A stretch of DNA of 64,000 nucleotides, from the NCBI RefSeq assembly GCF_024505185.1, contig NZ_JANIBJ010000009.1, positions 1 through 64,000 of the forward strand, in the 5' to 3' direction. Positions 34,420 to 64,000 of the stretch are shown here, one piece after another. Source of the DNA: Methylomonas subterranea (GTDB lineage: Bacteria > Pseudomonadota > Gammaproteobacteria > Methylococcales > Methylomonadaceae). Both the position numbers and the translations under genes were made by a program. Each line of letters starts with the position of its first letter. Position 1 is the first letter of the stretch. The notes below the pieces were generated by a model. The model ran no database searches. It saw only the letters and a program-made list of their open reading frames with translations, and was not told where the DNA came from.

Positions 34420-35391
34420 TCAATCCCCGGCAAACTCGGCAATCTTCAGCCGATACGGCGAATCGGATTGCTCCAATGCCCGCCAAACTTCAAACGCCCG
34501 TGGTTTGTCGCCGGTTTGATACAGGCTCAGACCGTAATAAAACACCACTCTGTCGTTGTGGCTGTCGTTACGATACAGAAACTGCATATGCTCCAAAGCG
34601 GCCGGATTTTGATCTTGCGCCAACAACAGCACGGCCAAATCCAACCGCGCGCTGCCCGCATCGGGATAAAAGTTCAGCAAGGTTTTAAAGCAGTCCAGCG
34701 CTGCCGGAATATCTCCCAGGCTCATATGAACATAGCCCAAATGCCGCAAGGCGCTGTAATTGGCGGCGTCCAGCGACAGCGCCTTTTGCAGGCATTCCCG
34801 GGCGGAGCCGTAATCCTGGCGCAGGAACAGGCTGACGCCCAACTGAGCCCAGGCATCGGCATAACCGGGATTGATTTCCAGCGCTTGCCGATACCAATCG
34901 ATGGCTTCCGGGTGGCGGTTTTGCATGGCGATGGCGCCGGCCAGCGAGGTGATGACGCGGGCATCGTATTGGGCGTTGCGATAGGCTTGCCGCCAAGCAT
35001 TTTCCGCGCCGACGATATCGCCCATGTTCAAGCGCAGGCGACCCAGATTATCCCAAACCTGGGCATTGCCAGGATCCAGATTGGCGGCCTTGAGCAATAG
35101 GTCCAGGCCGTCCTGCACCGAGCCGGTCATCGCCAGCACCTGGCCCAGGTTGCCGAGAAAATTGGCATTTTTCGGCGCCAGTTCCACGGCCAGTTGCAGG
35201 TGCTGCAAAGCCTCTTTCCAATGCCGTTGCTGCGCCAGCAAAAATCCCAGGTTGTTATGACTGGTGGCGTTGTCGGCATCGATTTCCAAGGCTTGCCGAT
35301 AACAATCGGCGGCCTTGGATAACTTACCCTGCAAATGCAGTTGCGCCCCCTGGGCAATCAGCTCGATCAAACGACTGTTATGTTCATCCAT
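34420..35391 (-). CDS. TPR-repeat protein at the end of the CIS operon
   Basis: A 323-residue soluble protein made almost entirely of tetratricopeptide repeats, about eight: for example AADCYRQALEIDADNATSHN, EALQHLQLAVELAPKNANF, DAWAQLGVSLFLRQDYGSAR and ALDCFKTLLNFYPDAGSAR. No signal peptide or membrane segment is seen. The start at 35391 shares one base with the stop of the DUF4157 gene (TGATG). It is probably a scaffold, a chaperone for cargo or an assembly factor. That is inference from TPR character and position. Confidence 0.8.
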   Translation of the reverse strand: MDEHNSRLIELIAQGAQLHLQGKLSKAADCYRQALEIDADNATSHNNLGFLLAQQRHWKEALQHLQLAVELAPKNANFLGNLGQVLAMTGSVQDGLDLLLKAANLDPGNAQVWDNLGRLRLNMGDIVGAENAWRQAYRNAQYDARVITSLAGAIAMQNRHPEAIDWYRQALEINPGYADAWAQLGVSLFLRQDYGSARECLQKALSLDAANYSALRHLGYVHMSLGDIPAALDCFKTLLNFYPDAGSARLDLAVLLLAQDQNPAALEHMQFLYRNDSHNDRVVFYYGLSLYQTGDKPRAFEVWRALEQSDSPYRLKIAEFAGD

Positions 35392-38300
35392 CAGACTATC
35401 TTGGAAAGCAAACCGTGAACGATATCGCTCGGAGAAATATCCGGCACCTCGAATTTTACGTCGTCCAGCGAAATATCGAAGGCCTGACCTTCCGTATAGC
35501 GTACCGGCAAACTGATGCCGAAACGATAATCCGAACCGAACTGATAGGAGGCCAATTCCCAGCGTTGCTCGTACAAACTGGCGCCCAATGCCGTCACGGC
35601 TACGTAGCCTGAAACGTCGAAGGTAAAGCTGGGCTGCGCATGCACGGCCAGATCGGCCTTCAATGCCAAACCCTTGGTGGGCGTCCAATCGATATCGACC
35701 GCCGCTTCCGCCGCGCCGGTCACGCCCAGCGTCCCACCGATTTCCAGACCGCCGGTCGCACTGGCGCCGGTGATTCCGAGGCCGATACCGGCGCGCGCCG
35801 CCAAACGTAAACCGGCATCGGCGGGTACTTTCAGCGCCGCGCTACCGGTGATTTTGGTATCTTCCTCATGATCCGGATTATAGGTCAGGCCGATTTTCAG
35901 TTGTGTCAAGGCGCCAGGACCGATGCCCGCCTTGGCGCCCAGATTTCCCCCTACTTCGGCGACAACGCCGGGTATGATGGGAATCTGGGTGGCCACCCCG
36001 AACAGGCGCTTATCGATTTCCTTGCGCGGAAACACTTCCAGAGAGCTGGGCAGGCCCAATTCGCCCGATACCGTGATTTCGCCTTGCTCGTCCAGCGTCA
36101 AACCCACCGTGGCCTTGAGCCAGGGCGCCGCCTTGACATCCACCGTGCCGCTCCCCCAAACCGTTAACGGTTCGGCCTCGCCGCCGCCCTCGCCCAACAG
36201 GGCCTTGGCGTTTAAATCCACATTACCGGCCAGCATGCCGCGTTTGTAGTTGGCTTTGACCTTACCGGTCAACACCCCGTCCTGGTAATCCAGCTTGATT
36301 TTGGCGCTGGCATCCAGACCGCTCAGATCAGGCTCCAGTTCGCCGCCGCCGCCCAGTGTCCAGGCCTCCCCCTTACGGGCGGCGTTGACATTCAATTTGC
36401 CGGCCTTGATGCGCGGAATGCTGTCCGACAATACCGCCTCGCCGCCGAGACTGATGTTACCGGCCTCGTCGGCTTGCGCGGATAGGCTGGCGCCCTTGAA
36501 GCCGGGTACCGACAGTTCCGCATCGCCGCTAAAATCGATGGCTTTTTTCTGGTCGTCGTAAGCCAGTTTAAAACCGGCTTTTTTGACGCCCTTCAGCGCG
36601 CCCGGTTTCAAATTGAGATTACCGGCGGCCTTGAAGCCTTTGGCTGTGTCGTAATTCATGCTGCCGCTACCGCTGAACAGGTCTTTTTCGAACTGTAAAT
36701 CCGCGCCCAAGTTAAAACCGTCCGCCCGGCCGGTTCCCGTCAATGAGCCCGTGGCCAGTTCACCGATATGAAAGTCAATGGCACCGCCGATCTCTATCCC
36801 GCTGCCCGTGCCGATACTCAAGCTCAATGAACTTTCATCGATCTGTATCGGCCCCTTGACGGAGATTTCCTCGGTCGAAAACGTCCGGCTCAAGATAATT
36901 TCACCGCCGACAATCCGCAAATCGATCCGTGCGTCGGCCAGTAACGGAATACCGTCGACCTTAAGCCTGCCACCGCCGGCCAAATCGCCGCCGGCATCCA
37001 TTTCAGCGGAATCCAGTGTTATGGGACTGAGCAAGGAATGATTGAAACCGAATTTGAAGTTGGGCAGGATGGATGCCGGCACCACGGAAGCCAGTAACGG
37101 AGCGGAGGGATTTCCTTGCAATTTTAAGGCGCCGGGCACGGCTTTCTTACCTCCCCGGGTATTGACGTTTACATTGATCTCGCCGGAATTCTGGTCCCTA
37201 TCGAAATGCCCGCCCACCACTTCCAGCCGCTTACCCCACGACCCGGTATTGCTGAATGTTCCATCCGGGTTCAACGGACTGACAAACATCACGCCGCCGC
37301 CGGGGCGCGGGAAAATTTTAAGCGTTTTATCGTCAAAAATTTTATCCAATTCCTTGCCCTTGGGAGCCTCCAATCCCTTTAACGTGCTGCCGTCCTCAAT
37401 ATCCTGCTTGTCCCACTTGATGGCCGGATTTCCCTTCATCGGCACATTGTAGGAAACGCCGGTAAATTTGACGTTGTATGCATTGAATATCTCATCGATG
37501 GCCGTTTTTACCGGACTTGGCGCTTTTCCAGCGCCACTGCCATCGCCGGCTGCTCCGGCGGCGGCATTCGCCGTACCGGTGTTGGCCGCCGAGGAAGGCT
37601 TCGGCAACTCCTTGCCAAGTATTGCCGGTGTTTCGCCATTCTCGGGAGCCTCGATAGGCAAAGCATTACGTACCCTCGCCTCCAGTGCCTTATCGATGCG
37701 GGATCCGGCGCTCCGGTTAACCGACGCATCCAGCAAGCGCATATTGGCGCTGCTATTCGTGCCGCCCAGTTGAATCTCGCGGATATGATCGACATCGAAA
37801 TTATTCAATGCGCCGTTTTCATCCCACCAGGGTATCTTCAATTGCGGCACCATGTCCTGAATGCCGCCGATCAAATATCCACCTTCCGTGCCTTTTGCCT
37901 TAAGTGCATAGACTGAACTTTCCACACCGGGTTGTTCGGGTTTCCTTGCCGCTTTCGCCGTTACTTTGTTGGCGTCCGGAGCCTTCACTTCCGACATCCA
38001 AACCTGTCTTTGATTGTCCGGTCTGGGACTGATGCGTTTGCCTTTTTCAATAGTAACGGTGTCTCCGAAAGTATCTTTTAATCCCGGCTTGTCGGGCAAG
38101 GCCAACCCTTCTATAAGCAGTGTATCGCCATCCAGCTTGGCTTTGCCCTTGCCTTGCATCGCCGCGGTGGATTTCGGCTTGGCTTTTGCCGGCTCCCGCA
38201 TCAACCGCCCCATGCCGCCACCCTGCTGCGCGACGTGGGTCAACTCGTGGGCCAACAATTTGCGTCCCTCCGCGCTGTCCGGCGCATACTCGCCGTCGGC

Positions 38301-38933
38301 GAAAAAGATGTCGTTGCCGACCGTAAAAGCCCGCGCATTCACGGCGGCCGCCAAGTCCGCCGCTTCAGCACCGGTATGGATGCGCACGGCGGATAAATCC
38401 GCTTGCAGCTCTTGCCGCATGTCGTTTGCGGCATTCTCCGCCAGCGGCTGGCCCTGGCCGCGCAGGTCGTTGATGCGTTGTTCGGTGCTCGGGTCGATTT
38501 GTTCGCTCACCTCAGCGGCTTGCGGCTGGTCACCGGCCGGTTTTTGGTCAAGTGCCTCATCGGCGCTTGCTATCGGCGTGGCGGCGGGTTTTCGCCGCAA
38601 CGCCGGGTCGGGCGTTTTGTCCCCGGCCGCCGGTTTGAGCGACAAGCTTTGTTGCGGGTCGCCCACATCCTGGCCGGGCCGCAGCGTCGCCCTTTGCAGG
38701 CTGTCCCGTTCGGCGAAAGCTGGCGGCTTGGCGGCGCGAGCGACCCGTTCGGCAACCTGATCGGCCTGTTGTTCGTGGGCATCGCCGGGCTGGCTGACTT
38801 TCATTTTGGCTTGCATATAACCGGGCACCGTTTTGTCCGCCGCCCTTGCCAGCGGCTTTTGATCCGGCGCGGGATTGGCGGCTTTGTGCAGCGCTTGCGG
38901 TTTGCGTTTTACACGCGGCGCGTGTTCCATCAT
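35391..38933 (-). CDS. DUF4157 protein with HNH-like motif and long beta-strand-rich C-terminus, candidate CIS cargo
   Basis: A 1180-residue protein. The first 150 residues are disordered and Pro/Ala/Gln-rich. Residues about 170-245 are a DUF4157 domain with the zinc-peptidase motif HELTH at 229-233. Residues 379-410 show an HNH-nuclease-like pattern: DVDHI, GG at 390-391, then N393, N397 and N406 in RSAGS context. A Gly/Ala linker (about 440-470) follows, then some 600 residues of alternating short strands rich in Gly, Asp and Lys, reminiscent of AsmA- or beta-helix-like repeats. There is no signal peptide. DUF4157 proteins recur in CIS loci as probable cargo. The stop of the ATPase overlaps its start (ATGA). 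A second ATG directly follows the first. Confidence 0.8.
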   Translation of the reverse strand: MMEHAPRVKRKPQALHKAANPAPDQKPLARAADKTVPGYMQAKMKVSQPGDAHEQQADQVAERVARAAKPPAFAERDSLQRATLRPGQDVGDPQQSLSLKPAAGDKTPDPALRRKPAATPIASADEALDQKPAGDQPQAAEVSEQIDPSTEQRINDLRGQGQPLAENAANDMRQELQADLSAVRIHTGAEAADLAAAVNARAFTVGNDIFFADGEYAPDSAEGRKLLAHELTHVAQQGGGMGRLMREPAKAKPKSTAAMQGKGKAKLDGDTLLIEGLALPDKPGLKDTFGDTVTIEKGKRISPRPDNQRQVWMSEVKAPDANKVTAKAARKPEQPGVESSVYALKAKGTEGGYLIGGIQDMVPQLKIPWWDENGALNNFDVDHIREIQLGGTNSSANMRLLDASVNRSAGSRIDKALEARVRNALPIEAPENGETPAILGKELPKPSSAANTGTANAAAGAAGDGSGAGKAPSPVKTAIDEIFNAYNVKFTGVSYNVPMKGNPAIKWDKQDIEDGSTLKGLEAPKGKELDKIFDDKTLKIFPRPGGGVMFVSPLNPDGTFSNTGSWGKRLEVVGGHFDRDQNSGEINVNVNTRGGKKAVPGALKLQGNPSAPLLASVVPASILPNFKFGFNHSLLSPITLDSAEMDAGGDLAGGGRLKVDGIPLLADARIDLRIVGGEIILSRTFSTEEISVKGPIQIDESSLSLSIGTGSGIEIGGAIDFHIGELATGSLTGTGRADGFNLGADLQFEKDLFSGSGSMNYDTAKGFKAAGNLNLKPGALKGVKKAGFKLAYDDQKKAIDFSGDAELSVPGFKGASLSAQADEAGNISLGGEAVLSDSIPRIKAGKLNVNAARKGEAWTLGGGGELEPDLSGLDASAKIKLDYQDGVLTGKVKANYKRGMLAGNVDLNAKALLGEGGGEAEPLTVWGSGTVDVKAAPWLKATVGLTLDEQGEITVSGELGLPSSLEVFPRKEIDKRLFGVATQIPIIPGVVAEVGGNLGAKAGIGPGALTQLKIGLTYNPDHEEDTKITGSAALKVPADAGLRLAARAGIGLGITGASATGGLEIGGTLGVTGAAEAAVDIDWTPTKGLALKADLAVHAQPSFTFDVSGYVAVTALGASLYEQRWELASYQFGSDYRFGISLPVRYTEGQAFDISLDDVKFEVPDISPSDIVHGLLSKIV

Positions 38934-40882
38934 GCCCTCCTGAACCGTTCCAGTTGCGGCGGCAATTGCCGGCCCAGCTTTTGGTATTCCCAGGCCAGAG
39001 CCTGTAACACGGCGGCCCTGCCCAGGATATCCCCGTCAAGAACCGCCGCGTTCAGCACGGCATTGCGAATGTAACCGCCCGGCAACTCGCAATGTTGCGC
39101 CAACAGTTGCACAAAATCCTCGCCCGGGCCGCGGGCGCCGAAGTGGCTGTGCCACAGCCGGCGCCGCTGTTCGACATCCGGCAACGGAAACTCCAGCACC
39201 GCGTCCAGCCGCCGCATGAAGGCCTTATCGATGCGGGCCTGACTGTTGCTGGTCAGAATGATGATGCCGGGATGCTGCTCTATGCGGGTCAACAGAAAAT
39301 TGGTCAGCATATTGGCGAAACGTTCGCCGACCTCGCCGCCGTCGCTGCGTTTACCGAACAATGCGTCTGCCTCGTCAAGCAACAGCACCACGTCGTGGTC
39401 GGCGGCCCGGTCCAGCATCAGACTGAGGTTTTTCTCGGTTTCGCCGATGTACTTGTTCATCACGGCGGCCAAGTCCAGCCGATACAAGGGCGCCGACAGG
39501 CTGGTGGCCAGATAGCTGGCCGCCAGGGTTTTGCCGGTGCCGCTCTCGCCGATGAACAAGGCCCGCACCCCCGGGTTTTCCATGGCATCGAAAGTGGGCC
39601 CCAGACCACAGCTCATGGATTCGCGGCGCCGGCAGCGCGCAGTCAAATGCCGCAGCTGCTGACTCAAGGCATCCGGCAAAATCAGCATATCGGCATCCAC
39701 CCGCCGCTCCACCGGCTGGGCCAGCAGGCGCAGATGGTCGGCGCTTTGCGAAAAGCGGGCCTGCAGCAGATGTTTGTCTTGCAAGGTTTCCCGATTTTGC
39801 AGCGCCGCGAGTTGTGCCTGTTCCGCGACGGCGACAATGTCCGGAGCGGACAGCTGGGCGGTTTCGGCGATAGCGGCGCTATCGAAACCGGGCAACACGC
39901 TCAACCATAGGGCTTGCCTGTGCGGATGCGCCAGCGCGCCGACCGCCAGCTCGGCGACATCCGCCGCGTCGACGCTGCCGTCGCGGCCCAGGATCACCAC
40001 CACGGGCACATCCCGCAACGCCTCCGGCAGCGTCAGACGTTCGCCCGGCCCGAGTTGCGGCTTGAGTATCGGCAGCCAGTGGCCGTAGCGCGCCAACAAA
40101 CCCAGTTGCCTATCCCGATAAGCGACGGCATCGATAACAACGGCTCGCAAGCCCAGGTTTTGCGCCAGGCGACCGGCCAGAAGCAGACAGTTTTGCTGTT
40201 CGCCGCGCAGCAGCACGCCGCCAATGCGTTGTTGCGCCAGCAAGCGCGCCAAATGCTCGCTGCTTTGCAGCATTTCGGGCGCCAACAGCAGGGTCTTCGG
40301 CATGGCCAAGGGCCGGCAGCCGCTCCATTGCATGGCTTTGCCGTTCAGCAACTGCCAAAGTTGCGGCGCCATTTTCAGACGTTGCAAGGGCAAGGGCCCG
40401 TCCCCTTCCAATTGCAAAAATCCCTGTTTCAGCAGCACATGTTGAAATAAATCCACCGCCGTGTAATCGCGCCCGAATAGCGTCAGGCATAGCGCGGAAA
40501 TCAGATGCAGCTCCGGCCGGGGTTGTTGCGGCTGCTGCAATAATTCGATCAGCAAGGCGGCCTGATGATGGCTTTCCACCACCCCGCACAAACTCAGCAG
40601 AAAAAAATCGGCGGCATTCAGGCTGAAATCGCGCGCCACCCGGCCCAAGTTACCGGACAGATGGGGCAGACAGGTGTCCAGACTCTCCACCAATTCCAGC
40701 CAACTGCGATCAGGCTGTTGCAAGATGCGTTGCAGTTGTTGGGTGACGTTCAATTCCCGCACCAATTCCGGCGTCTGCGGCATCCGCAGGTCGGCGAACA
40801 TGGCCAGTGCCGTCAACACCAGATTTTCCGCCAATTCCTGCCCGGCCTTTATCATCATTCGTGGCGGCATGGTTTGCGTCAT
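38930..40882 (-). CDS. AAA+ ATPase of the CIS (Afp15-like)
   Basis: A 650-residue ATPase. The C-terminal AAA+ module is complete: Walker A GESGTGKT at 445-452, Walker B VVLLLDEAD at 498-506, sensor 1 in IIILTSNSQ and arginine finger in FMRRLD near 556. A second, degenerate ATPase-like module lies at about 220-350, ending in VPVVVILGRDG and with no P-loop. The N-terminal 200 residues are helical. Every Afp/PVC-type CIS locus carries such an ATPase, thought to act in particle assembly or quality control. It follows the 514-aa gene by 9 bases. Confidence 0.92.
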   Translation of the reverse strand: MTQTMPPRMMIKAGQELAENLVLTALAMFADLRMPQTPELVRELNVTQQLQRILQQPDRSWLELVESLDTCLPHLSGNLGRVARDFSLNAADFFLLSLCGVVESHHQAALLIELLQQPQQPRPELHLISALCLTLFGRDYTAVDLFQHVLLKQGFLQLEGDGPLPLQRLKMAPQLWQLLNGKAMQWSGCRPLAMPKTLLLAPEMLQSSEHLARLLAQQRIGGVLLRGEQQNCLLLAGRLAQNLGLRAVVIDAVAYRDRQLGLLARYGHWLPILKPQLGPGERLTLPEALRDVPVVVILGRDGSVDAADVAELAVGALAHPHRQALWLSVLPGFDSAAIAETAQLSAPDIVAVAEQAQLAALQNRETLQDKHLLQARFSQSADHLRLLAQPVERRVDADMLILPDALSQQLRHLTARCRRRESMSCGLGPTFDAMENPGVRALFIGESGTGKTLAASYLATSLSAPLYRLDLAAVMNKYIGETEKNLSLMLDRAADHDVVLLLDEADALFGKRSDGGEVGERFANMLTNFLLTRIEQHPGIIILTSNSQARIDKAFMRRLDAVLEFPLPDVEQRRRLWHSHFGARGPGEDFVQLLAQHCELPGGYIRNAVLNAAVLDGDILGRAAVLQALAWEYQKLGRQLPPQLERFRRA

Positions 40883-40891: not shown

Positions 40892-42436
40892 TCAGATCAG
40901 CGGCAAGCCGCCATAGTGAAATTTGACCACCTTGCCCAGCCACGGCAGCCAACCCGGATCGATATCCAAACCCACCCGCCTCAGGTCCAGATTCACGCTG
41001 TCCAGCGCATAAAACACATCGACATGGCTGGCGTCCGCCTCCAGCAAGGCCGGCACGGCTAGGATATCCCGCCGGAACAGAGCCGCGCCGTAACGTTGCC
41101 TGCCCCATTGCAACAAATCCTGGATTTGCGGCATGGCCGGCAATTGCCGTAACCGGGCCGGCTCGGCGTAGCCGCAGAAATAGGCAAACAAATTTTCCAG
41201 TTCGGGCTCGACATCCCATTCCATGGCAAGCGCCAGTTGCCACAGCCAACCCCAGGCCGAGGGATAATCGCGGGTCGCGGGCTCGGACAGCAAGGCTTCC
41301 AGTACCTGGGGCAGATTCAGAAAGTTCAGCAGATAAAACATTCCGCCCTGTTGGGTGAACAGCCGGTTTGGCGCAACCCAAACCGCGTTCGCCAACGGCT
41401 CCGGCTGGTTTGCGGCTGGCGCGGCCGTTCCGGTCGGATCGGCCATGCTTGCAACTACGGCTCGCGCCGCAACGGGTAAAACCGCCGGGCCGCTCCCGGC
41501 CCGCATGCCGGCCGCCTGTTCGCCGGCCGATACCGCCGGAGCCTGAATGGCCGGGACTGCCGTTGGCGGCTGACCTCGGTTTGCCGGCGCATTATCTATA
41601 ACAGCTTGCGATTCGGCGGCCAGCTGCAAGGCCTCGACGCGGGATCGGTCGTCGCCGGTTTCATGAATATCGGACTCAAGGTTTATCGCCGGACCGGCCG
41701 AGACAGCTTGCAGTTGCCGTAAAACGCCGAGATAGGGCGGCGCTAATTCAGCCGCCCGCTGTTTCAAGGGTTGCCATTGGCGTACTACCAGCAAGGCGGC
41801 CAATTCCAGCACGCCGGCGGGCCACCGCGCGCCGGCCAAGGCCGTTTGCCAGGGCGCAAACCAAGCCGGCGGCAAGTCGACGGGATGGGCATCGCCGCCG
41901 GCCGCCGCTGCCAATCGTTGCAGTTCGGGCCATGACGGAAAGACCGCTTCGCACAAGGCCCGCGCCTGGGTTTCGCTTAGTTGCCGGCAAAACCGGCGCA
42001 ATTGCTCGCGCCGCGCCAAATGCGTAATCAGGGCCGGAATCAGGTAGCGATGTTGCCGCCAGCAGTTGCTCAAGCCGTCCGCCATCGGCATTTCGAACAG
42101 GCCTGCCCATTGCCGCCAATACCAGCGGTATCGGTTTTGCAGCAAATCGCGGCTCAAGCAGGCCAGCAACTCGGCATCATCGGCAAAATACACGGCCCAC
42201 CAGCGGTCCGCATCGTCTCGCCAGCCCGACACGGCGGTCCGCCGCAGTTCCCGCGCCTGTTCGGCCAAACTGTAAGCCAGCCGGCCGGCCGATGTCAGCG
42301 CTTGCAAGCGCCGGATAAACAGATACTCCCTGTCCCGCAAATGCGGCCAGGCCGCCCGCTCCAGATCGTCCGCCAGCAGCCGGCGCTGGCTTTCGCGGCC
42401 CTTGAAATGCAGTCTATCGATATGAATCGCGTTCAT
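40892..42436 (-). CDS. CIS-locus protein of unknown function (514 aa)
   Basis: I do not recognise a named family. The start at 42436 (MNAIHIDRLHFKGRES) overlaps the stop of the 616-aa gene by ATGA. The open frame continues upstream to 42925 but only inside that gene. Residues 1-170 are helical and rich in Trp, Tyr and Arg (NRYRWYWRQWAGL). A Pro/Ala linker covers about 240-310. The conserved-looking C-terminal half contains GGMFYLLNFLNLPQVLEALL, WGWLWQLALAMEW and a terminal all-helical domain. It directly precedes the AAA+ ATPase, so it may be its adaptor. Confidence 0.72.
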   Translation of the reverse strand: MNAIHIDRLHFKGRESQRRLLADDLERAAWPHLRDREYLFIRRLQALTSAGRLAYSLAEQARELRRTAVSGWRDDADRWWAVYFADDAELLACLSRDLLQNRYRWYWRQWAGLFEMPMADGLSNCWRQHRYLIPALITHLARREQLRRFCRQLSETQARALCEAVFPSWPELQRLAAAAGGDAHPVDLPPAWFAPWQTALAGARWPAGVLELAALLVVRQWQPLKQRAAELAPPYLGVLRQLQAVSAGPAINLESDIHETGDDRSRVEALQLAAESQAVIDNAPANRGQPPTAVPAIQAPAVSAGEQAAGMRAGSGPAVLPVAARAVVASMADPTGTAAPAANQPEPLANAVWVAPNRLFTQQGGMFYLLNFLNLPQVLEALLSEPATRDYPSAWGWLWQLALAMEWDVEPELENLFAYFCGYAEPARLRQLPAMPQIQDLLQWGRQRYGAALFRRDILAVPALLEADASHVDVFYALDSVNLDLRRVGLDIDPGWLPWLGKVVKFHYGGLPLI

Positions 42437-44304: not shown

Positions 44305-46011
44305 TCACGCGGGTGGGGTTTTGCTGGCGAACTTGATATCCGGCAGCCAGCGCGCCACCGCCAAACCGCTGCCGTCGCCGGGCAGGCCGCCCGCCAGACG
44401 GGAAAAAGACAGGCTGACGTGGTCGATTTGCTGGCGCTGGCTGCGCTGCATGTCGGCATACAGCGCCAGCAATTCGGCCAAATCGTCTATCAATTGCTCG
44501 GTGCGTTCGATTTGCAGACTGGCATCCAGATACTGTTTCAGCAGGCCGTCGGCCTCGCTGGCGGGCGGAGCGCTCCAATCGAAGGTTTCGCCGGCGGGCG
44601 GCGGCGGAACGGTCTCGGTGTAAGGCGCCGGCAACTGGGGATTGATGCCGTTGGCGGCGGTTTGCCAATCGCGGCTGGAAGCTATCAAGCGGCTGAAAAA
44701 CAGCTCGGGCGTGATAGGCTGGCCCTCGGCTTCGGTATCGATCTTGTCCGGCACGCCGCCGAACAGGCGTTTGCCTTCGCTGGTTTGAAAATCCGCCGGC
44801 CGAAGATTGTTGAACAAGGCGTCGTACTGCACCACCCAGTCTTTCCAGCTGTCGTGCGCCTTTTGTGCGTAACGGTACAAATCCTGCTGCATTTGCCAAT
44901 CCGGCAACGGCAAATCCAGCAGATCGGCGCGGTAATCGGCGTCGGGCACCGCCAACAGCAAGCGGATGCGGTCGCCGCCGACGTTTTCCAGGTCTATGGA
45001 CATGCGCGGCAGTTCGCGGGCCACCAGACCTTGTACCTGGCTTTCCGCGATTGGCGCCATCTCCACCTGCAAATGCGGCGGAAACCAATGTGTTTTGGGC
45101 AAGCCGGCCACGTCTTCCAGAAACAAGGTCGGCAACACGCCGGCGGCCGGCAGATAAGCCAATTTAAAACTGTCGATCAGCGTTTGGCGGGCGGCGGCGT
45201 CCGCCAATTGCCAGCCGTCGAAATGCTGTTGGATGGTCTGAGTGGCATGCGACAAAAAGGTCCAGTAGTTGGCCTTGGCCTTGGCCGGAAAGCGCCCGGC
45301 CACCGCATCGAACCACAGCACCTGGTCGTTTTCCACCGCCAACATACCTATCGGCACCGCGCCGTCGGCTGCAAACCAGTCGCTGTCCAGGTGTTCGGCC
45401 AGCAGGCGGTTGACGGTCAAGTCGCGGTCGGCCTTGGCCGCCGCCACCGCCTCGTTGGCTTCCCAAACCGGTTGCAGCGTCAAGCGGGTGACGGTTTCGA
45501 TGCGGGCGTCGCGCAGCAAATCCAGCTCGTCGCGCGCGCAAGCAGCGAACTGACCGCTTTTATCCACCGCTTCCAGTTCGCGTATCACGCATAAAAAATA
45601 AATGCCGTGTACCGCGCCGATAGGATTCAGCTGCCGGCCGCGCTTGTCCAGATACTCGGTTTGTTGCGTCCGCCAATATTGATCCAGCGGAAATATCATG
45701 TTGACGATTTTACCGTCGCCGCCCACCGCCAGTCCCGGACGCACCCGAAAAAGCCAGTCGCTGGTTTCGCTGTCCTCCAAGGGCACTACGCCGGCGGCCA
45801 CTTCGAAACCGTGGATAATGCCCGGCGCGTGCCCGCACAGCAAGGGCGCCAGACGCTGCTCGGTATAGCTTTGCAGGATGTCGAACTCGCGCTCGCCCAT
45901 GCTTCGGCCGGCAAACAGATTCAGGCGCAGCCGGCCCTGCTGTTGCAAGGGATCGGCGGCCAAGCCGTTGCCGGGCGCGGCTTGGTGTAAACGTATGCTG
46001 CGATTGGTCAT
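44305..46011 (-). CDS. CIS-locus protein with shared N-terminal module, copy 3 (568 aa)
   Basis: The N-terminal 130 residues repeat the layout of the two upstream genes: an F-x-GR start (NLFAGRSMGEREF), a helix (QSYTEQRLAPLLCG), HGFEVA, then VRPGLAVGGDGKIV. The remainder is a large mixed region with many Trp and Leu, including WKDWVVQYDALFNNLRPADF, ending in a helical segment. Function unknown. A baseplate-periphery or fibre-attachment role is possible by position after the gpI-like gene. A strong Shine-Dalgarno (GGGGAGG) precedes the start. Confidence 0.72.
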   Translation of the reverse strand: MTNRSIRLHQAAPGNGLAADPLQQQGRLRLNLFAGRSMGEREFDILQSYTEQRLAPLLCGHAPGIIHGFEVAAGVVPLEDSETSDWLFRVRPGLAVGGDGKIVNMIFPLDQYWRTQQTEYLDKRGRQLNPIGAVHGIYFLCVIRELEAVDKSGQFAACARDELDLLRDARIETVTRLTLQPVWEANEAVAAAKADRDLTVNRLLAEHLDSDWFAADGAVPIGMLAVENDQVLWFDAVAGRFPAKAKANYWTFLSHATQTIQQHFDGWQLADAAARQTLIDSFKLAYLPAAGVLPTLFLEDVAGLPKTHWFPPHLQVEMAPIAESQVQGLVARELPRMSIDLENVGGDRIRLLLAVPDADYRADLLDLPLPDWQMQQDLYRYAQKAHDSWKDWVVQYDALFNNLRPADFQTSEGKRLFGGVPDKIDTEAEGQPITPELFFSRLIASSRDWQTAANGINPQLPAPYTETVPPPPAGETFDWSAPPASEADGLLKQYLDASLQIERTEQLIDDLAELLALYADMQRSQRQQIDHVSLSFSRLAGGLPGDGSGLAVARWLPDIKFASKTPPA

Positions 46012-55673: not shown

Positions 55674-56314
55674 ATATTCCCCGCTCCCGGCGTATAACTG
55701 CTGGAAACCACCGCATTGCTGATCAGGGTGTCGCATTTGACCACCCCGGAAAATTTGCTCATGCCGGCCTCCACTTCCACCATGCCGGCCGAGACTTTCA
55801 CCTGGGCCGCCGATATGCTGACCTTGGCCGAGGCGTTGATTTTGATTTCGGCGTTGCTGAACTCGATGCTTTCCGAGCCTTTTGCTATCAACACCTTGCC
55901 GCCTTCGGCTTCGCTGATCTCCAGGTGGTAGCCGCTGCTGGTTTTGATATCGATCTTCGCATCCGCGCTATCGTCGAATTTAAGTTGCGAGCCGGACGGG
56001 GTGCGGATGCAATACACGTCCTCCGCTTCGCGGGCTGCTTGCGGCTGGCTGTCGCCGCCCGACCACAGAGCGCCCATCACCACCGCCACTTCCGGACTGA
56101 TAAAGGCCAACACCACCTTTTCGTCGATTTTGGGCAACAGGCTGACGCCGTAATCCGGGCCGGCGCTGTTGGTCAATACGGCCGCCCACAATTCCATGTC
56201 GCCGACCGCCAGCCGTACCTTGATCCGGCCCCGGTTGTCCGGATCCCGATTATCCAGCACGGTGGCCAGATGCAAAGTCTGCAAGGCACCGAAAGCGTGA
56301 CCCAGGGTATTCAT
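55667..56314 (-). CDS. Spike protein, gpV/gp5-like (Afp8 C-terminal half)
   Basis: A 215-residue baseplate spike. Residues about 10-85 are the OB-fold phage_base_V domain (ATVLDNRDPDNRGRIKVRL, ELWAAVLTNSAGPDYG, PKIDEKVVLAFI and VVMGALWSG). The rest is a triple-stranded beta-helix with repeated I/V-x-I-x pairs (IEFSNAEIKINASAKVSISA, QVKVSAGMVEVEAG), ending CDTLISNAVVSSSYTPGAGN. The ATG at 56314 has GGAG about 10 bases upstream and is preferred to the GTG at 56323. No PAAR motif. Confidence 0.9.
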   Translation of the reverse strand: MNTLGHAFGALQTLHLATVLDNRDPDNRGRIKVRLAVGDMELWAAVLTNSAGPDYGVSLLPKIDEKVVLAFISPEVAVVMGALWSGGDSQPQAAREAEDVYCIRTPSGSQLKFDDSADAKIDIKTSSGYHLEISEAEGGKVLIAKGSESIEFSNAEIKINASAKVSISAAQVKVSAGMVEVEAGMSKFSGVVKCDTLISNAVVSSSYTPGAGNIW

Positions 56315-56315
56315 A

Positions 56316-57362
56316 TCAGGCACTCCAGTCGGCGCGGTTGAGTTTTAAAAAACTGCGAAAACCCAGTGCGCTATCGAAACGGTGGCCGCAGTGGACGATT
56401 TGATAACGACCGCGCAAGCGCTCGGAAACGTCGGTCAGTTCGACTTCCCGGCCCGCCGCGAACTCCACGTTGCCGGTGCAGACCGCCTCGCCGGCCAGAA
56501 AGGCCTTGGCCCGGCTACGAAACGCCGCCGAGGCCCACTTGTCGGCTTCGGCCTGGGTTTTGGCGAAGGGATGCGGAAAATAGGCCTCGCCCGGCCAGCC
56601 CAAACGATTCAGCAGGTCGCGGGCCGAAGTCGCCGAGGCCGGCGGTTGCAGGGCGGTGCCCTGGGCGGAAGCGGTTTGGTCGGCGGCCAGATCGAAACCC
56701 GCCACCTTGGCCTCTGTCGGCTGGCCGTTCAGATCGGCGATGATGCGCAAATATTCCATGCCGTCCTGCGGGCTCAAGCGCGGCGGATTGCTGTCGGCCT
56801 GTTCCGCCTTGATGCGCAATTGGCCTTGTTGCCAGCGCGCGGCAATGTCGTAGGGCGCCAGCAAGCGCTGCATGAAGGCCAGATTGCTTTCGTTGAACTG
56901 ATGCCAGTCGCCGGTCTGCGACGATACCTGGATATCGGCCGCCAAACCGGCATCGTCCGCCAGGGTTCGCAACACCTGGTCCAGGCTTTGCTCATCGAAA
57001 CGGCGGCTATGCCGTTGCCGGGCCAGTAAGTGCATTTTGTCTTCCACCAGCAACAGTATTTGCGGAGCGCCGTCGCCGTAGCGTTCTTCTATCGCGGTGA
57101 CGTCGCCGCTGAACAACGCCGGCTGGTCTTGTTCGCCCATCATGATCTCAATCGCGGCGCCGTGACCGATGTGCTGGAACACGAAACCCGGCGTTTCGGA
57201 GTCGTCCAGCCTGCCCCAGTTGATCAAGCGAATTTCGGCGTGCGCGCGGCCGGACAGCGGCTGCTGTATCGCCACATCCTTGACCGCTTCGGCCATGGCG
57301 GCGGAATCGCCGCCGTCGACGCGAAAACGCGGCCGGGCATTGATGACGGCCGCGGCCACCAT
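56316..57362 (-). CDS. gp27/gpD-like hub protein (Afp8 N-terminal half)
   Basis: A 348-residue phage late-control D-like protein that forms the baseplate hub below the spike. RPRFRVDGGDSAAMAEAVKD, FVFQHIGHGAAIEIMMG, DQPALFSGDVTAIEERYG, LLLVEDKMHLLARQRHSRRF and LRTLADDAGLAADIQV are the D-family order. The C-terminal block RGRYQIVHCGHRFD is also typical. The ATG at 57362 shares one base with the stop of the DUF5908-type gene (TGATG). In Afp the hub and spike are one protein, but here they are split into two genes. Confidence 0.88.
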   Translation of the reverse strand: MVAAAVINARPRFRVDGGDSAAMAEAVKDVAIQQPLSGRAHAEIRLINWGRLDDSETPGFVFQHIGHGAAIEIMMGEQDQPALFSGDVTAIEERYGDGAPQILLLVEDKMHLLARQRHSRRFDEQSLDQVLRTLADDAGLAADIQVSSQTGDWHQFNESNLAFMQRLLAPYDIAARWQQGQLRIKAEQADSNPPRLSPQDGMEYLRIIADLNGQPTEAKVAGFDLAADQTASAQGTALQPPASATSARDLLNRLGWPGEAYFPHPFAKTQAEADKWASAAFRSRAKAFLAGEAVCTGNVEFAAGREVELTDVSERLRGRYQIVHCGHRFDSALGFRSFLKLNRADWSA

Positions 57363-57523
57363 CAATCCACCAACAGGCGGGCCTGCCGCTCGCGCAGGAT
57401 TTGCAACTGCCGCAGCAATTGTTCTTCCTGCTCGTTGGCGGCGGCGAACAGCGGATTTTCGCTGGCTTCGCCGGCGTCGGCTTGCTCGACTTCCGCTATC
57501 ACTTCGTTGATAAAAACCGGCAC
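57362..57523 (-). CDS. DUF5908-type small CIS protein (53 aa)
   Basis: A very short gene beginning with GTG at 57523, with AGGAG placed 6 bases upstream. The protein starts PVFINEVIAEV and ends in a charged helix (NEQEEQLLRQLQILRERQAR). A short strand 'MPVxIxEvVixAxV' plus acidic helix is the pattern of DUF5908 proteins found between the LysM-type and hub genes of CIS loci (position of Afp6). It starts 22 bases after the LysM-type gene and overlaps the hub gene by one base. Confidence 0.75.
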   Translation of the reverse strand: MPVFINEVIAEVEQADAGEASENPLFAAANEQEEQLLRQLQILRERQARLLVD

Positions 57524-57544: not shown

Positions 57545-58330
57545 TTAAAACGCGCCGGGTATACGCGTACCCAACTTGTACGATTGGCCGTAACTGAATC
57601 CGCCGCCGCTGCCCGAGCCGCTCTCGGCGGAGCTGGGCGGCATCACCACCCCCTGTTGGTCGCTATGGCGCGGATTTTCCATACCGTTGTACAGTGCCGT
57701 ATCCCGCCATTGTTTAGGGTCGCGGTTGGCGGCCAGATTGGCATCCGCGGCGCTGACGCCTTCGCCGTCCACCGCCAGCCGGCCTTGCCGGCTCAGGGCA
57801 TCTTTTAAATCGATGATGTCGAACTGGTAATTGTCCTGCTTGAAGGTCAGCGCCAGCGTGGCGCGCAACGGCACGCCTTCCGGCGAGAAAAAATCCAGGG
57901 TCTCGTTGTAACTGCTCAACATGCCGATGAAGGAAAAACTGCCCCATTGAAAGCGGCAACGCTTGGGCGCCTTGGGTTGCTTGCTTTCGGCGTCTTGCGG
58001 CTTCATGAATTCGGTGGCAATCCGTTGCGTCTGCCGGCGCACGTCCTTATGCAGCAGGGTTTGGCCGCCGTCGGTCTCGCCGAGGTTTTCCGCCTCCAGC
58101 ACGCTGGTATCGAACACCAGCTCGATGGCCAGGGTGGATTCGCTTTTATCGACGAATTGAGCAGCCTTGCTTTGGCCGCCGCCGCTTTTGCTGTCCTTCA
58201 AGGTGTTGGCCAAAGTCACTTTCAGGCTGGCCGGGTTGAATTGCACGCTGATCCAGCTTTCTTCCGCCGCATCCCGGTTTTGCGCATCCAGCGGTATCAA
58301 CACTGCCTTGCTGAGTTTGCCGCTAGCCAT
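57545..58330 (-). CDS. CIS tube/baseplate protein with degenerate LysM domain (Afp7-type)
   Basis: A 261-residue protein. The N-terminal 165 residues match the CIS tube protein / Afp7 family (AVLIPLDAQ, ISVQFNPASLKVTLANTLKD, TLAIELVFDTSVLEAE, CRFQWGSFSFIGMLSSYNET and YNQF-like KQDNYQFDI). Residues about 190-235 correspond to the LysM domain that connects tube and hub in this family. Its second half is recognisable (DPKQWRDTALYNGMENPR, GVVMPP), but the first half is poor. A Ser/Gly-rich tail ends the protein. It overlaps the second tube gene by 8 bases. Confidence 0.85.
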   Translation of the reverse strand: MASGKLSKAVLIPLDAQNRDAAEESWISVQFNPASLKVTLANTLKDSKSGGGQSKAAQFVDKSESTLAIELVFDTSVLEAENLGETDGGQTLLHKDVRRQTQRIATEFMKPQDAESKQPKAPKRCRFQWGSFSFIGMLSSYNETLDFFSPEGVPLRATLALTFKQDNYQFDIIDLKDALSRQGRLAVDGEGVSAADANLAANRDPKQWRDTALYNGMENPRHSDQQGVVMPPSSAESGSGSGGGFSYGQSYKLGTRIPGAF

Positions 58331-58808
58331 TTTGCACCGCCCGCACGGACTGATTCCAGTTCACCGCAAAGCCTTCGTGATTCAAATGCAGTTCCTCTAT
58401 CGCCACCTGATTGGCGCTGGCATTTAGATCCGGCCCCTTGAATTTGATCGGCAGCACGTTATCCAGCGTCCAAACCATGACCGCTCGTTCGGGGTCGGCC
58501 GGATCGATCAGTTGTATGCCGCAATTCAAGCGCAACGCATAATAACTTTGCCGGAAGCTACGGTCGAACAAGCGCCAAAGACCCTCGGCGTCGGTGATGC
58601 CGCGTTTCAGCACCACGGTGGCAAAGGTGGTCGGGCCGGCCAGTTGCACTTCGCCCCAATTGCGGCCGCCTTCCTTCAGGGTTTTGGGCGCCATGCTGGC
58701 CTCCAGGCCGCTGACTTCGCTGAAGGCGCCGTTGCAAACCAAACCGCCGCCGGCCGAATCCGGCAAGCTCAATTGCACATGAAAACGAAACGGAATGAAT
58801 TCAGCCAT
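58323..58808 (-). CDS. Second tube protein, T4 gp19-like (Afp5-type)
   Basis: A 161-residue inner-tube protein. PFRFHVQLSLPD, FSEVSGLEASMAPKTLKEGG, TTFATVVLKRGITDAEGLWR and DNVLPIKFKGPDLNASANQ are the gp19-family blocks, aligning with the other tube at 60370-60825. In Afp this copy (Afp5) forms the first ring on the hub. It overlaps the second sheath gene by 8 bases. Confidence 0.92.
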   Translation of the reverse strand: MAEFIPFRFHVQLSLPDSAGGGLVCNGAFSEVSGLEASMAPKTLKEGGRNWGEVQLAGPTTFATVVLKRGITDAEGLWRLFDRSFRQSYYALRLNCGIQLIDPADPERAVMVWTLDNVLPIKFKGPDLNASANQVAIEELHLNHEGFAVNWNQSVRAVQNG

Positions 58809-60366
58809 TTTTGATGTCCAGTTGCCATTGACTGCTGTTGCTGCCCAAATCGTGGCTGAAATTCAGCACGATGCGGTCTATCGGAAATACCGGCGCCAGT
58901 TCGATGCGGTAAATCACCGTGCTTTCGTTGTCGTGACTGGCGGCGACGGAAAAAGCCTGTTCCGGCAAGGCCCCGCGCAGGGCGCCGGCTCTGTGCAGAC
59001 CGGTAAAAAACTGCGTCAGCTGCGTCTTGCCCAAGGGGTCGCGCACATCGGTATTGAACAGCCAGCTTTCGCCCAGCCGCAGCAATTGCCGGTGCAACCA
59101 GCCCAAAAAACGCGCCACTTCGCCCGAACGGTAAGCCTCGACCGGCCGGTTCCTGCTTGTAAAACCGCCGGAACCCACCACCGGCGCGGCGCGGCGCTCG
59201 TCATCCAGTTGCAGGCGGTTTTTGTAGGCCACCAGCACGCCCACGCCCGGTTGCTCGCGTAGCTCGGCCACTTGCCGGCCGTGCACGGGCGGATACAGCT
59301 GCCACATGCCGGGCAGGGTTTTGCCGGCCATCGAACGCCAGGGCCCCAGGCGCTGGCTGGTTTCCAGCATGGCGCCGGCAATCAGGCCGACCGGACTGCA
59401 TAGGGGCCGTTCCCGACCGGTCAAATAGGGAAACAAAAACTGCACCGCGTGCAGGCCGGTATTGTCGCCGGCGGCGACCGCCCCTATCGTTTGCACGGCC
59501 TCGCGGGCCACCGTCGGCAAACTGCCCTCGCCGACTTGCTCCAACGGCAAGGTCAACAGACATTGCACGTCCGGCCGGCGCTTTTTCAGGGTTTGCAGCA
59601 TGGGCGCCAACAGGTCTTGCAGCGGCCATGGCCGGACCGGTTTGGGGATTTCCTCGCCGCGGCGGCGCTCGCGGTGATCGTCGGCGGTCGAGGCCGCGCA
59701 GGGTAAAAATACCGGATCGGGATTGACCAGCCGCATGCGCCGCACATCGGCCAAATTGGCCGGCACCTGCAAACGCTCCAGATCGGGCAAGGCTATTGCC
59801 CCCAGGTTGGGAATCAGCATGGCGCGGTCGAACGCCGACAGCCGCCGGGCATCGGCGTAATCGGCATGGGGGTCGGGCAAAAACCCGCCTTGCCCGCGCT
59901 GCTCGGCAATTCTGAATATCCATAGCTTTTTGGCGCCGTCGGCCAGCACACCGGCCTGGGACGACTGGAAAAAATCGGCGACGGCGGCCGGCAGCCAGGC
60001 ACTGTTGCCGGCCAGCTGACTGCGATAGTTTGTGCCCGGTCTGTCGGCTTGCGGAAACAACACCTGAAAATGCGCCAGACTCAACAGCGGAATCGGCAGC
60101 TCGTAAAGCTGCAATAAAGCGGGGTCCGGCTCGGTCATGCCGCGCTCGGCCGGCGGCTTATCCCGTTGTGCCAGCCAGTTACGCAGCGTTTCCATCTGCG
60201 CGGCAAAACCCAGCCGGGCTATTTCCGCGACGGTTTGCGGACTTTCCAGCAGCAAATCCCAACGGGCGTTGCCGGAGCAATGGCCGAGCATGGCCACGTC
60301 CATCACCGCGTCAACCGCCGCCACGGGTCTGACCCGCATCTCCAGCCGGGAATCCGCCAGTGCCAT
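58801..60366 (-). CDS. Second, divergent sheath protein (Afp3/Afp4-type position)
   Basis: A 521-residue sheath paralogue. The C-terminal half aligns with the main sheath: CSPVGLIAGAMLETSQRLGP against LPPGGFIAGVYANTDVSRGV, and RFLGWLHRQLLRLGESWLFN, GALRGALPEQAFSV against the sheath C-terminal domain. The N-terminal 300 residues are unlike it, with no canonical N-terminal strand, contain VAMLGHCSGNARWDLLLESP, and are about 200 residues shorter overall. Such short sheaths are thought to form the baseplate-proximal ring. It begins 3 bases after the tube gene. Confidence 0.85.
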   Translation of the reverse strand: MALADSRLEMRVRPVAAVDAVMDVAMLGHCSGNARWDLLLESPQTVAEIARLGFAAQMETLRNWLAQRDKPPAERGMTEPDPALLQLYELPIPLLSLAHFQVLFPQADRPGTNYRSQLAGNSAWLPAAVADFFQSSQAGVLADGAKKLWIFRIAEQRGQGGFLPDPHADYADARRLSAFDRAMLIPNLGAIALPDLERLQVPANLADVRRMRLVNPDPVFLPCAASTADDHRERRRGEEIPKPVRPWPLQDLLAPMLQTLKKRRPDVQCLLTLPLEQVGEGSLPTVAREAVQTIGAVAAGDNTGLHAVQFLFPYLTGRERPLCSPVGLIAGAMLETSQRLGPWRSMAGKTLPGMWQLYPPVHGRQVAELREQPGVGVLVAYKNRLQLDDERRAAPVVGSGGFTSRNRPVEAYRSGEVARFLGWLHRQLLRLGESWLFNTDVRDPLGKTQLTQFFTGLHRAGALRGALPEQAFSVAASHDNESTVIYRIELAPVFPIDRIVLNFSHDLGSNSSQWQLDIKNG

Positions 60367-60369
60367 GGC

Positions 60370-60825
60370 TTATTCCTGGTCCACCGTTTCGACCGACAAC
60401 ACCAGCTCTTCGATGGCCACGTCACCGCCGCCCTTGCCGGTCAGGGTCGGCCCGGTCCATTTGATCGGCATGGCGTTTTTTAGCCGCCAGGTCACCACGG
60501 TATCGGAGCGGTCTTCGTTGAGCAGCTTGATGCTGATGTTGCGCTTGCCGGACAGCTTGCCCTGGCGCACTTCGTCCAGCCAGTTCCATAGGTTTTGCGC
60601 GCCGATGATGCCGCGTTTCAGCGTGACATCGCCGGCCTTGTGGATACCGGGAATTTTGCTGACATGGTTGACCTTGCTGTTGCCGTTGCGGTATTCGGCG
60701 ATGGTGACTTCGGCGTTCAGGCCGGAGACGTCGGAAAAGCCGGCGTCGACCTGCTCGCCCTGCCCCGGCTCCAGTTCGACCACGTAGTTAAAAGCGGAAT
60801 AAGGAGTTTCTCTAAATACGGCCAT
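60370..60825 (-). CDS. Main tube protein, T4 gp19-like (Afp1-type)
   Basis: A 151-residue inner-tube protein. MAVFRETPYSAFNYVVELEP, AGFSDVSGLNAEVTIAEYRN, VTLKRGIIGAQNLWNWLDE and NAMPIKWTGPTLTGKGG are typical of CIS tubes. An AGAGGTGAAC Shine-Dalgarno precedes it, and it follows the main sheath by 12 bases. This sheath-then-tube pair is the most abundant pair in Afp-like particles. Confidence 0.95.
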   Translation of the reverse strand: MAVFRETPYSAFNYVVELEPGQGEQVDAGFSDVSGLNAEVTIAEYRNGNSKVNHVSKIPGIHKAGDVTLKRGIIGAQNLWNWLDEVRQGKLSGKRNISIKLLNEDRSDTVVTWRLKNAMPIKWTGPTLTGKGGGDVAIEELVLSVETVDQE

Positions 60826-63055: not shown

Positions 63056-63877
63056 TTAGGGACTTTTTAACTCCAGGGTGCTAACGCGGGTTTCATCGGC
63101 AACAAAACCCAATTTAAGGCGCTGATTTTTACTTTCGGCCAGCACGGTGAGCGTGTCCGCGAATACGCCGCTGCCGGCCAAGGCGATCCGCATGGCGGTC
63201 ATTTGATCGGGGTCCGGAAACATGCCGCCGGCTTGGGTTTTATCGGCCTTGACGCTCAATTCCGCGCTGAAACCGGCCGTCAGCATGGCTACCGATAGCC
63301 GCGTGACCGGAATTTGAAAAAAGCCGTCGATGTCGGCTTGCGCGTTAAAGATATAACTGTCGCCGGTAGCGGCAAGATTGACCCGCAGAGTCACCAAGGC
63401 CCAGGAAGCGGGCCGGGCTTCGCTTTCATCGGCTTGTTTTTGGTAGCGCAACCGGCCCTGCAAGGATTTGTTTTGGCTGAGCCGGGTGCCCACCACGGAG
63501 CGGTACAAGGCTATTTGCGGATAGCTGTTGTTGCCGCAGTCGGTAATGAAGGTACGCGGGTTAAACTGGCCGGCCGGGTCGCTCACCGTGCCTTTTAGTT
63601 GATACGGCGTTTCGGCGGGTCTGGCCATTTGGGTTTCCGCGGCCCGCCCCGGCTGCTCGGTGCGCTGCAATTGCTCCGAATCCGGCAATTGCGCGCGCCA
63701 AATTACGCTAACACCTGGTTTATGCGACAAGCTGATGCCTTTGACGGCGAGATTCTCGTCCAGGTCGATTTGCAAGGCATTTAGCACCGGGTTTTGCCGG
63801 CCTTCCCTGCCGGTACCGTCCAGCCAGCGAATCACGTCACTGCTTTGCCGGATCAGGGTTTCCTTGAAGCGGATCAT
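63056..63877 (-). CDS. CIS-locus protein of unknown function (273 aa)
   Basis: I do not recognise the family. It begins MIRFKETLIRQSSDVIRWLD with no signal peptide. The body is beta-rich, with a region (ALVTLRVNLAATGDSYIFNA, DGFFQIPVTRLS) resembling a carboxypeptidase-regulatory-like or Ig-like sandwich. The start overlaps the preceding stop (ATGA), and the gene ends 40 bases before the main sheath. By position it could be a tail-terminator partner or decoration protein. Confidence 0.7.
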   Translation of the reverse strand: MIRFKETLIRQSSDVIRWLDGTGREGRQNPVLNALQIDLDENLAVKGISLSHKPGVSVIWRAQLPDSEQLQRTEQPGRAAETQMARPAETPYQLKGTVSDPAGQFNPRTFITDCGNNSYPQIALYRSVVGTRLSQNKSLQGRLRYQKQADESEARPASWALVTLRVNLAATGDSYIFNAQADIDGFFQIPVTRLSVAMLTAGFSAELSVKADKTQAGGMFPDPDQMTAMRIALAGSGVFADTLTVLAESKNQRLKLGFVADETRVSTLELKSP

Positions 63878-64000
63878 TGCAGTTCTCCGACCGGCAAAAC
63901 GATGCTTTGCACCGGCTCGCCGCCCTCTTCCCGCACCGGTTCCAGGCGCAAGGTTTTGATGATGTAGGGCGCGGATAGAATGTAATCGTGCGGCAGGCTG
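63874..64000 (-). CDS. Partial CIS-locus gene, C-terminal end only
   Basis: Only the last 41 codons are in the window: DYILSAPYIIKTLRLEPV then SIVLPVGELQ and TGA. The stop overlaps the next start (ATGA). In Afp/PVC-like loci the gene here is often the tail terminator (Afp16, DUF4255), and the beta-rich end would fit. The visible part is too short to prove it. Confidence 0.5.
   Translation of the reverse strand, partial: SLPHDYILSAPYIIKTLRLEPVREEGGEPVQSIVLPVGELQ

Follow-up and report, generated by a model that had tools for sequence, protein, structure and literature searches.

Within a 64,000-nucleotide stretch of the Methylomonas subterranea genome (hereafter, the window: positions 1-64000 of the 123,119-bp contig NZ_JANIBJ010000009.1; genome size 4.41 Mb), we characterized a contractile injection system (CIS) locus that, judged from its gene content and profile matches, is a complete CIS of the group-II type and probably a working one. 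The CIS block consists of 20 collinear genes and a TPR gene, all on the minus strand, and extends from window position 34420 to contig position 64467 (Table 1). The locus itself is an ordinary complete CIS; the result of this analysis is the sharply defined lineage and its marker, u636, a hydrophobic-ended protein encoded between the spike and gp25. Because such a protein is encoded among the baseplate genes, three adaptor paralogues are present, and no lysis gene was detected among the locus proteins scanned with Pfam, we propose, at about even odds (a probability of roughly 0.5), that the baseplate of this system works at a membrane rather than in a free particle like those of the antifeeding prophage (Afp) and the Photorhabdus virulence cassettes (PVC).

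The u636 gene is the one that an earlier sequence-only reading of the window listed as a 615-amino-acid (aa) gene of no nameable family. The lack of a named or solved relative stands, although the longest open reading frame (ORF) is 636 aa; judging by length, the true start is probably an internal methionine that yields 615 aa. The last ~43 residues of u636 are strongly hydrophobic, with a maximum 19-residue Kyte-Doolittle (KD) mean of 2.67, compared to 1.85 or less for the other 20 of the 21 locus proteins. This property is retained in all 47 loci recovered from our genome collection (KD 2.30-3.30, within 50 residues of the end), and the hydrophobic segment is the most conserved part of the protein, the mean column identity being 0.630 in the segment vs 0.319 before it (40 sequences; columns filled in at least 20 rows). 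In 39 of the 40 sequences, the stretch that follows the segment is more positively charged than the one that precedes it, with mean net charges of +2.35 and -1.32, respectively. The best matches in Pfam, PDB and PHROGs are weak (E-values 0.28, 0.24 and 0.044), the PDB search gave no credible solved relative, and there was no match in NCBIfam. Single-sequence searches, by tblastn in the case of plasmids, detected no u636 on plasmids or in GenBank phages; both are weak negatives, given that the plasmid search missed a distant orthologue on a Rhodococcus plasmid.

The 47 loci were returned by a scan of the genome collection with a 10-row u636 alignment. The gp25 and J genes adjoin u636 in every one of them, and the spike is also present in 45, the remaining two contigs starting at u636. 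The carriers include Methylomonas, Marinibactrum, Teredinibacter, Hahella, Marinobacter, Thiohalocapsa, Lysobacter and Variovorax, as well as Desulfocapsaceae, Nitrospira, Planctomycetota, Acidobacteriota, Verrucomicrobiota and the myxobacterium Minicystis; many of these loci come from metagenome assemblies, and their taxon labels may err. An orthologue in the same slot on a Rhodococcus opacus plasmid brings the total to eight phyla. In the viral collection IMG/VR, 11 contigs encode u636, and because all 11 carry the CIS sheath-to-J block, they are probably mis-called bacterial loci; the scan of these contigs covered our own CIS profiles only, not head genes. A search of the viral catalogue with the J protein alone gave no relative. 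Among 11 comparator CIS loci (four from relatives known to lack u636 and seven plasmid loci found via the sheath), the u636 profile matched one, that of Rhodococcus, and was not found in the other 10.

In phylogenetic trees of other proteins of the locus, the u636 carriers fall on one side of a single branch. In the J tree of 44 rows, this branch has a support of 100 in the Shimodaira-Hasegawa-like approximate likelihood ratio test (SH-aLRT); in a tree of 28 chosen rows, the bootstrap and SH-aLRT values are 95 and 94, and the split occurs in 94% of 200 bootstrap trees. The sequence-only reading had suggested a phylogeny of the sheath, and in the tree of the main sheath (sheath1) the carriers likewise stand together, with a support of 100, after removal of one mis-assigned row (two changes with the row kept). 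The removed row, with a branch length of 10, was judged to be the second sheath of its locus because its contig starts at tube 1. In the hub tree, the separation is less firm (support 92). Near-duplicate and fragment loci were left out of these trees (15 for the 44-row J tree, 13 for the first sheath1 tree and the hub tree, and 14 once sheath1 was rebuilt), and the trees are partly circular, the positive loci having been found through u636.

Two samples that were not chosen by u636 gave the same picture. Among 151 relatives, 54 genomes had a sheath1 match, with a gap in the best scores between 360 and 215 bits; u636 is present in 19 of the 21 genomes above the gap and in none of the 33 below it, the two exceptions above it being drafts of about 520 and 530 contigs. 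Of 398 genomes of the phylum, 15 had a J match, three of them above 600 bits and 12 at 205 bits or less, and u636 was found in exactly the three high-scoring genomes (0/12 in the rest). As far as trees and gene content can tell, u636 tracks one CIS lineage and is not a scattered gene. Two sub-lineages exist within Methylomonas itself, and the 28-row J tree does not unite them. Other members of the genus and family carry different CIS types without u636, such that several kinds of CIS occur in one family.

The second component of the argument is the set of genes that follows the gpI-like gene. In profile comparisons, the 568-aa protein matches the 613-aa and 313-aa proteins (E = 4.7e-43 and 3.4e-10), and the latter two match each other (5.6e-12), which identifies the three, at the level of profile similarity, as paralogues of one Cis13-like adaptor family. 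The 613-aa and 313-aa proteins score 41.7 and 29.3 bits against the NCBIfam CIS13_fam model, below its cut-off of 370, and the 313-aa profile also matches 6 of 10 comparator systems. No match of these adaptors to TssK was found in Pfam. Their maximum KD means, 1.43 or less, reveal no transmembrane (TM) helix of the type found in the thylakoid CIS (tCIS), and in alignments of 8-10 full-length sequences within the genus, none of them has an end as hypervariable as would be expected if it were a receptor fibre. In the relevant sections of the Anabaena study, Cis13 is described as similar to a tail fibre and as the link between baseplate and thylakoid (PMC8894136). According to the consulted portion of a 2026 catalogue, eBAP3 is an anchor domain of ~200 aa in systems with Tail_P2_I genes, and up to four eBAP3 fibres, which are likened to TssK, may sit on each baseplate (PMC12923769). 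The order found here, a Tail_P2_I gene and then three Cis13-like genes, fits this picture by analogy.

Under the membrane reading, the sheath and tube would assemble on a baseplate that contains u636, which would insert its C-terminal segment into the membrane, while the three adaptor paralogues would link the gpI wedge to the membrane site, much like TssK in the type VI secretion system (T6SS). On contraction, the tube would be pushed across the envelope together with the probable nuclease encoded by the DUF4157 gene, the machine acting while attached to the membrane and not freely released. Three kinds of CIS are described, in the passages available, as membrane-attached or dependent on a membrane protein, each via a different protein (PMC8894136, PMC11566945, PMC12237407), and we count it in favour of this reading that the locus has three proteins of the kind to which the tCIS anchor, Cis13, belongs. 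Several observations weigh on the other side. The positive bias after the segment does not fit a simple single-pass inner-membrane tail anchor and instead suits a hairpin in the membrane of the producer or insertion into a target from outside. Conservation as strong as that of the segment is unusual for a mere anchor and is in keeping with a pore or a specific contact. In layout, u636 differs from each of the three known anchors, and, going by what the eBAP3 catalogue says in part (PMC12923769), the role of receptor fibres would fit the three adaptors just as well. Tentatively, and with a confidence short of even odds, we suggest a broader proposition, drawn from the sequence data: that u636 founds a new membrane-inserting family of CIS baseplate or tip proteins, lineage-defining in at least eight phyla and representing a route separate from those of Cis13, CisA and Hbor_38620, and that three TssK-like adaptors take the place of receptor fibres.

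The charge bias and the conservation of the segment would suit an extracellular CIS freed by lysis, in which u636, located at the spike or baseplate, would seal or perforate the target membrane by inserting its hydrophobic C-terminus on contact or firing, the positive tail entering the target cytoplasm, and the Cis13-like proteins would be receptor fibres, as eBAP3-type proteins are described in the accessible part of the catalogue (PMC12923769). The lack of a T6SS-type membrane complex in the locus, by Pfam, also agrees with release. However, neither the lysis gene that release calls for (among the proteins scanned) nor a variable fibre end on any adaptor was seen, and on balance we regard a released particle as rather unlikely, if the most serious competitor. 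A cytoplasmic CIS like that of Streptomyces, turned against its own producer under stress and with u636 taking the part of CisA, is improbable. In its favour, no solved main sheath is nearer than that of S. coelicolor, and CisA is described, in the portion of the literature at hand, as a membrane protein required for firing in Streptomyces. According to the same descriptions, however, CisA is made up of a disordered N-terminal part, a TM segment and a domain at the C-terminus, and its gene lies downstream of the baseplate genes; u636, by contrast, has its hydrophobic segment at the very end and is encoded between the spike and gp25, and the S. clavuligerus plasmid cluster lacks u636 altogether. 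Least probable of all is that u636 is a tape-measure-like cargo ejected on firing, as suggested by the TM hairpin predicted at the C-terminus of S. lividans Sle1 and its remote kinship to tape measures, reported in part of one paper (PMC13277306), and by the lack of any other recognizable tape-measure gene in the locus, given that the C-termini of Sle1-type proteins are said there to share little similarity, whereas that of u636 is its most conserved part, and that u636 sits among the baseplate genes and is kept with them.

The candidate cargo is the DUF4157 protein. It retains the HExxH motif and contains an HNH-like motif at residues 379-406, within a middle region that is otherwise variable. 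The pattern VDH..E...N..LL...N, written after inspection of the sequences, is present in all eight full-length versions (that of the window and those of seven Methylomonas relatives) and in none of 1000 shuffles of the window protein. HNH is the best Pfam family in four of six fragments, at 13.4-18.3 bits and hence below the cut-off of 21.4; of the remaining two fragments, one matches another weak family and one none. The gene has a conserved C-terminal half of ~550 aa and a middle that varies between relatives, as in polymorphic toxins, to which this organization might be compared. DUF4157 domains combined with toxin domains are a known theme of extracellular CIS (eCIS), as stated in the section consulted (PMC8213781). 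From these motifs, the protein is likely a nuclease cargo; no separate immunity gene was identified for it.

The assignment to the CIS made in the sequence-only reading is borne out by the Pfam matches and by conserved synteny: the locus has the gene content of the CIS/eCIS superfamily, namely, sheath, tube, hub and spike, gp25, J, AAA+ ATPase, Pvc16 cap and DUF4157. The named parts, all on the minus strand as described in that reading, were recovered in the Pfam scans and, for the second sheath, by a profile match. The second sheath is weak in Pfam (E = 0.0027, below the cut-off) and firm in profile comparison with solved CIS sheaths, the best being All3325 of Anabaena. The protein that had been called LysM-type matches only CIS_tube in Pfam, with no LysM domain. 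A prophage or myophage origin, already set aside in that reading, was rejected: no capsid, terminase, portal or integrase was found among 26 proteins of the locus and right flank and 20 further proteins, a negative that covers the proteins scanned with Pfam and not every ORF of the window. The same holds for a classical T6SS, with TssJLM and ClpV not detected among the locus proteins; the TssM-type (IcmF_C) match of this genome lies on contig C8, outside the locus, and TssJ, TssL and ClpV were sought in the locus proteins only, not genome-wide. The IcmF/TssM-type gene on C8 and a PAAR gene on contig C20 probably belong to a separate T6SS.

The placement in the Afp/PVC class did not hold. The best profile match of the main sheath is to S. 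coelicolor 8bky (2.8e-102; the same sequence as 9gtp, which, as far as the paper on the S. coelicolor CIS is available, is its own entry), followed by 9ezm (2.1e-100), and the matches to Afp3 (2.7e-48) and Pvc2 (1.7e-45) are far weaker. We infer that 9ezm is the sheath of the Halogeometricum CIS, this entry being mentioned in the accessible part of the Halogeometricum paper. Because its main sheath is far nearer to those of S. coelicolor and 9ezm than to Afp3 and Pvc2, the system is, on sheath similarity, nearer to the so-called group II than to Afp/PVC. With Afp/PVC it has in common the sheath, tube, gp25, J, AAA+ ATPase and Pvc16 cap, but the sheath is much more distant, the hub and spike are separate genes, and no PAAR was seen in the locus. 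The Streptomyces CIS (CISSc, subtype IId) owns the nearest solved main sheath, and the S. clavuligerus plasmid cluster shares the cap, the cap-adjacent protein, two sheaths, two tubes, and separate hub and spike, but has no u636 between the spike and gp25; CisA, judged from its description, differs from u636 in layout and position. The Anabaena tCIS, the sheath of which is the best match of the second sheath here, shares, so far as it is described in the part consulted, the Cis13-like adaptor and the theme of a membrane-inserted helix, but its TM helix is on Cis13, whereas here the segment is on u636 and none of the three Cis13-like proteins carries one. The haloarchaeal CIS of Halogeometricum, which acts as a T6SS, resembles the locus in its main sheath, if 9ezm is indeed that sheath; its putative anchor, from a partial description, is a six-TM protein outside the core, unlike u636. 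The Haloferax larsenii cluster also has separate hub and spike genes but carries PAAR, not u636, between the spike and gp25.

A substitution of u636 for PAAR was considered and dropped. Pfam detected no PAAR in the locus, with the only match of the genome on C20, but this is a weak test: PAAR_motif was found near the CIS in 0 of 18 genomes searched, comparators without u636 included, and its absence is therefore uninformative.

That reading had also called the lineage poorly described, and our literature search agrees: among open-licence papers, supplements aside, there was no paper combining "contractile injection" and "Methylomonas", and those listed on methanotrophs, five other host genera and CIS anchors gave no account of u636 or its lineage. 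Sequence does not yet tell reliably if a given CIS works as a free particle, inside the cytoplasm or on a membrane, as one source notes in the excerpt available (PMC12998442). As a single conserved marker across eight phyla, including cultured Methylomonas, u636 offers one gene to remove and a simple prediction. The lineage bears on where CIS sit and how they fire, and helps naming, 11 contigs of a viral catalogue carrying this CIS block. If it does work at a membrane, it would represent a further route by which phage-tail machines became membrane-bound.

The arrangement of the locus is not due to chance, given that the gene order is conserved, for the genes found, in all nine related genomes searched by tblastn with 22 reference proteins (seven Methylomonas and two of the same order). 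In the two outer relatives, no match was found at that sensitivity for the second sheath, 568-aa, 273-aa and TPR genes, nor, in one of them, for the DUF4157 gene; the TPR gene is matched in seven of the nine. With the assumed starts, neighbouring genes overlap or are at most 40 bp apart, except for a 179-bp gap before the hub, a spacing as expected of one operon. The locus had been described as incomplete at the right edge; it is indeed cut by the window, but only 467 bp lie beyond, and extension past position 64000 recovered the missing gene, the cap (contig 63874-64467), which completes the set.

Table 1. Genes of the CIS locus of M. subterranea, listed by window position
Feature	Position	Strand	Evidence
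TPR-repeat protein, last gene of the run, start uncertain	34420..35394	-	Pfam TPR_2 4.8e-40
DUF4157/eCIS_core protein, 1180 aa, probable cargo	35391..38933	-	PF13699 3.2e-30
AAA+ ATPase, Afp15/Pvc15 position	38930..40882	-	PF00004 3.1e-24
514-aa protein without family, directly before the ATPase gene	40892..42436	-	no database match
616-aa protein, C-terminal half of the fused protein in four relatives	42433..44283	-	
568-aa Cis13-like adaptor paralogue	44305..46011	-	profile match to 613- and 313-aa proteins
613-aa Cis13-like adaptor paralogue	46015..47856	-	NCBIfam CIS13_fam 8.6e-11, below cut-off
313-aa Cis13-like adaptor paralogue	47872..48813	-	NCBIfam CIS13_fam 5.1e-7, below cut-off
gpI-like baseplate protein (Tail_P2_I)	48815..51217	-	PF09684 2.7e-6; CIS12_fam 3.9e-24, below cut-off
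Baseplate J protein	51222..53516	-	Baseplate_J PF04865 4.2e-10
gp25 sheath initiator, longest ORF	53434..53958	-	PF04965 3.1e-23
u636, longest ORF 636 aa, C-terminal hydrophobic segment at residues 594-636	53826..55736	-	
Spike, gpV-type, gene separate from hub	55667..56323	-	PF04717 3.8e-16
Hub (GPD)	56316..57365	-	PF05954 5.1e-14
Tube-baseplate adaptor (CIS_tube)	57545..58330	-	PF19266 1.1e-26
Second tube protein (gp19)	58323..58808	-	PF06841 1.3e-26
Second, divergent sheath protein	58801..60366	-	PDB profile match All3325 1.8e-9
First tube protein (gp19)	60370..60825	-	PF06841 2.1e-36
Main sheath, 725 aa	60838..63015	-	PF04984 4.5e-21; S. coelicolor CIS sheath 2.8e-102
273-aa protein between cap and sheath	63056..63877	-	position only
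Cap protein (Pvc16_N), continuing to contig 64467	63874..64000	-	PF14065 4.6e-32

The J start is uncertain, most relatives pointing to about 53396, and the true start of gp25 is probably further in, the orthologues being shorter. The tube-baseplate adaptor has 261 aa, against 412-420 aa for its counterpart in the other sub-lineage of Methylomonas, a difference that, from the lengths, corresponds to an extra domain lost or gained.

Seven or more genes had been reported to lack a nameable family, including, apart from u636, the three that fall in the Cis13-like family and the 616-aa gene. In four Methylomonas relatives, the latter is fused to the 568-aa gene in one gene of 1224-1252 aa, with the 568-aa part as the N-terminal half and the 616-aa part as the C-terminal half, which, on the gene structures, is a fission or fusion within the genus. 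An apparent kinship of the two in hhalign was rejected as an artefact caused by fused sequences among the aligned relatives, but the fusion is genuine. The 616-aa protein has no solid family match in Pfam, NCBIfam, PHROGs or PDB, and the 514-aa protein, for which the earlier statement stands, has no match in these databases but is matched by tblastn in all nine related genomes. The 273-aa protein is, by its position, probably cap-associated, and its slot is annotated as "carboxypeptidase regulatory-like" in two other CIS. The PDB search gave no credible relative for the 313-, 514-, 613-, 616- and 273-aa proteins or for u636 (best E-values 0.09-0.53, or no match).

On the right, past the cap, the locus is flanked by a 138-aa ORF without a family, which has no tblastn match in any of the nine related genomes, and by an HD-domain protein and a resistance-nodulation-division (RND) pump identified with Pfam; on the left, beyond the TPR gene, Pfam identifies a GntR/aminotransferase-type protein on the opposite strand. 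ARAGORN detected no tRNA in the window. Further to the left, a 776-aa ORF (27981-30311, minus strand) with a weak NACHT match (E = 9e-4, below the cut-off) has a third-position G+C fraction of 0.31, compared to about 0.6-0.77 for most of its neighbours; by composition and this match, it resembles a STAND-type NTPase gene acquired not long ago and might serve in defence.

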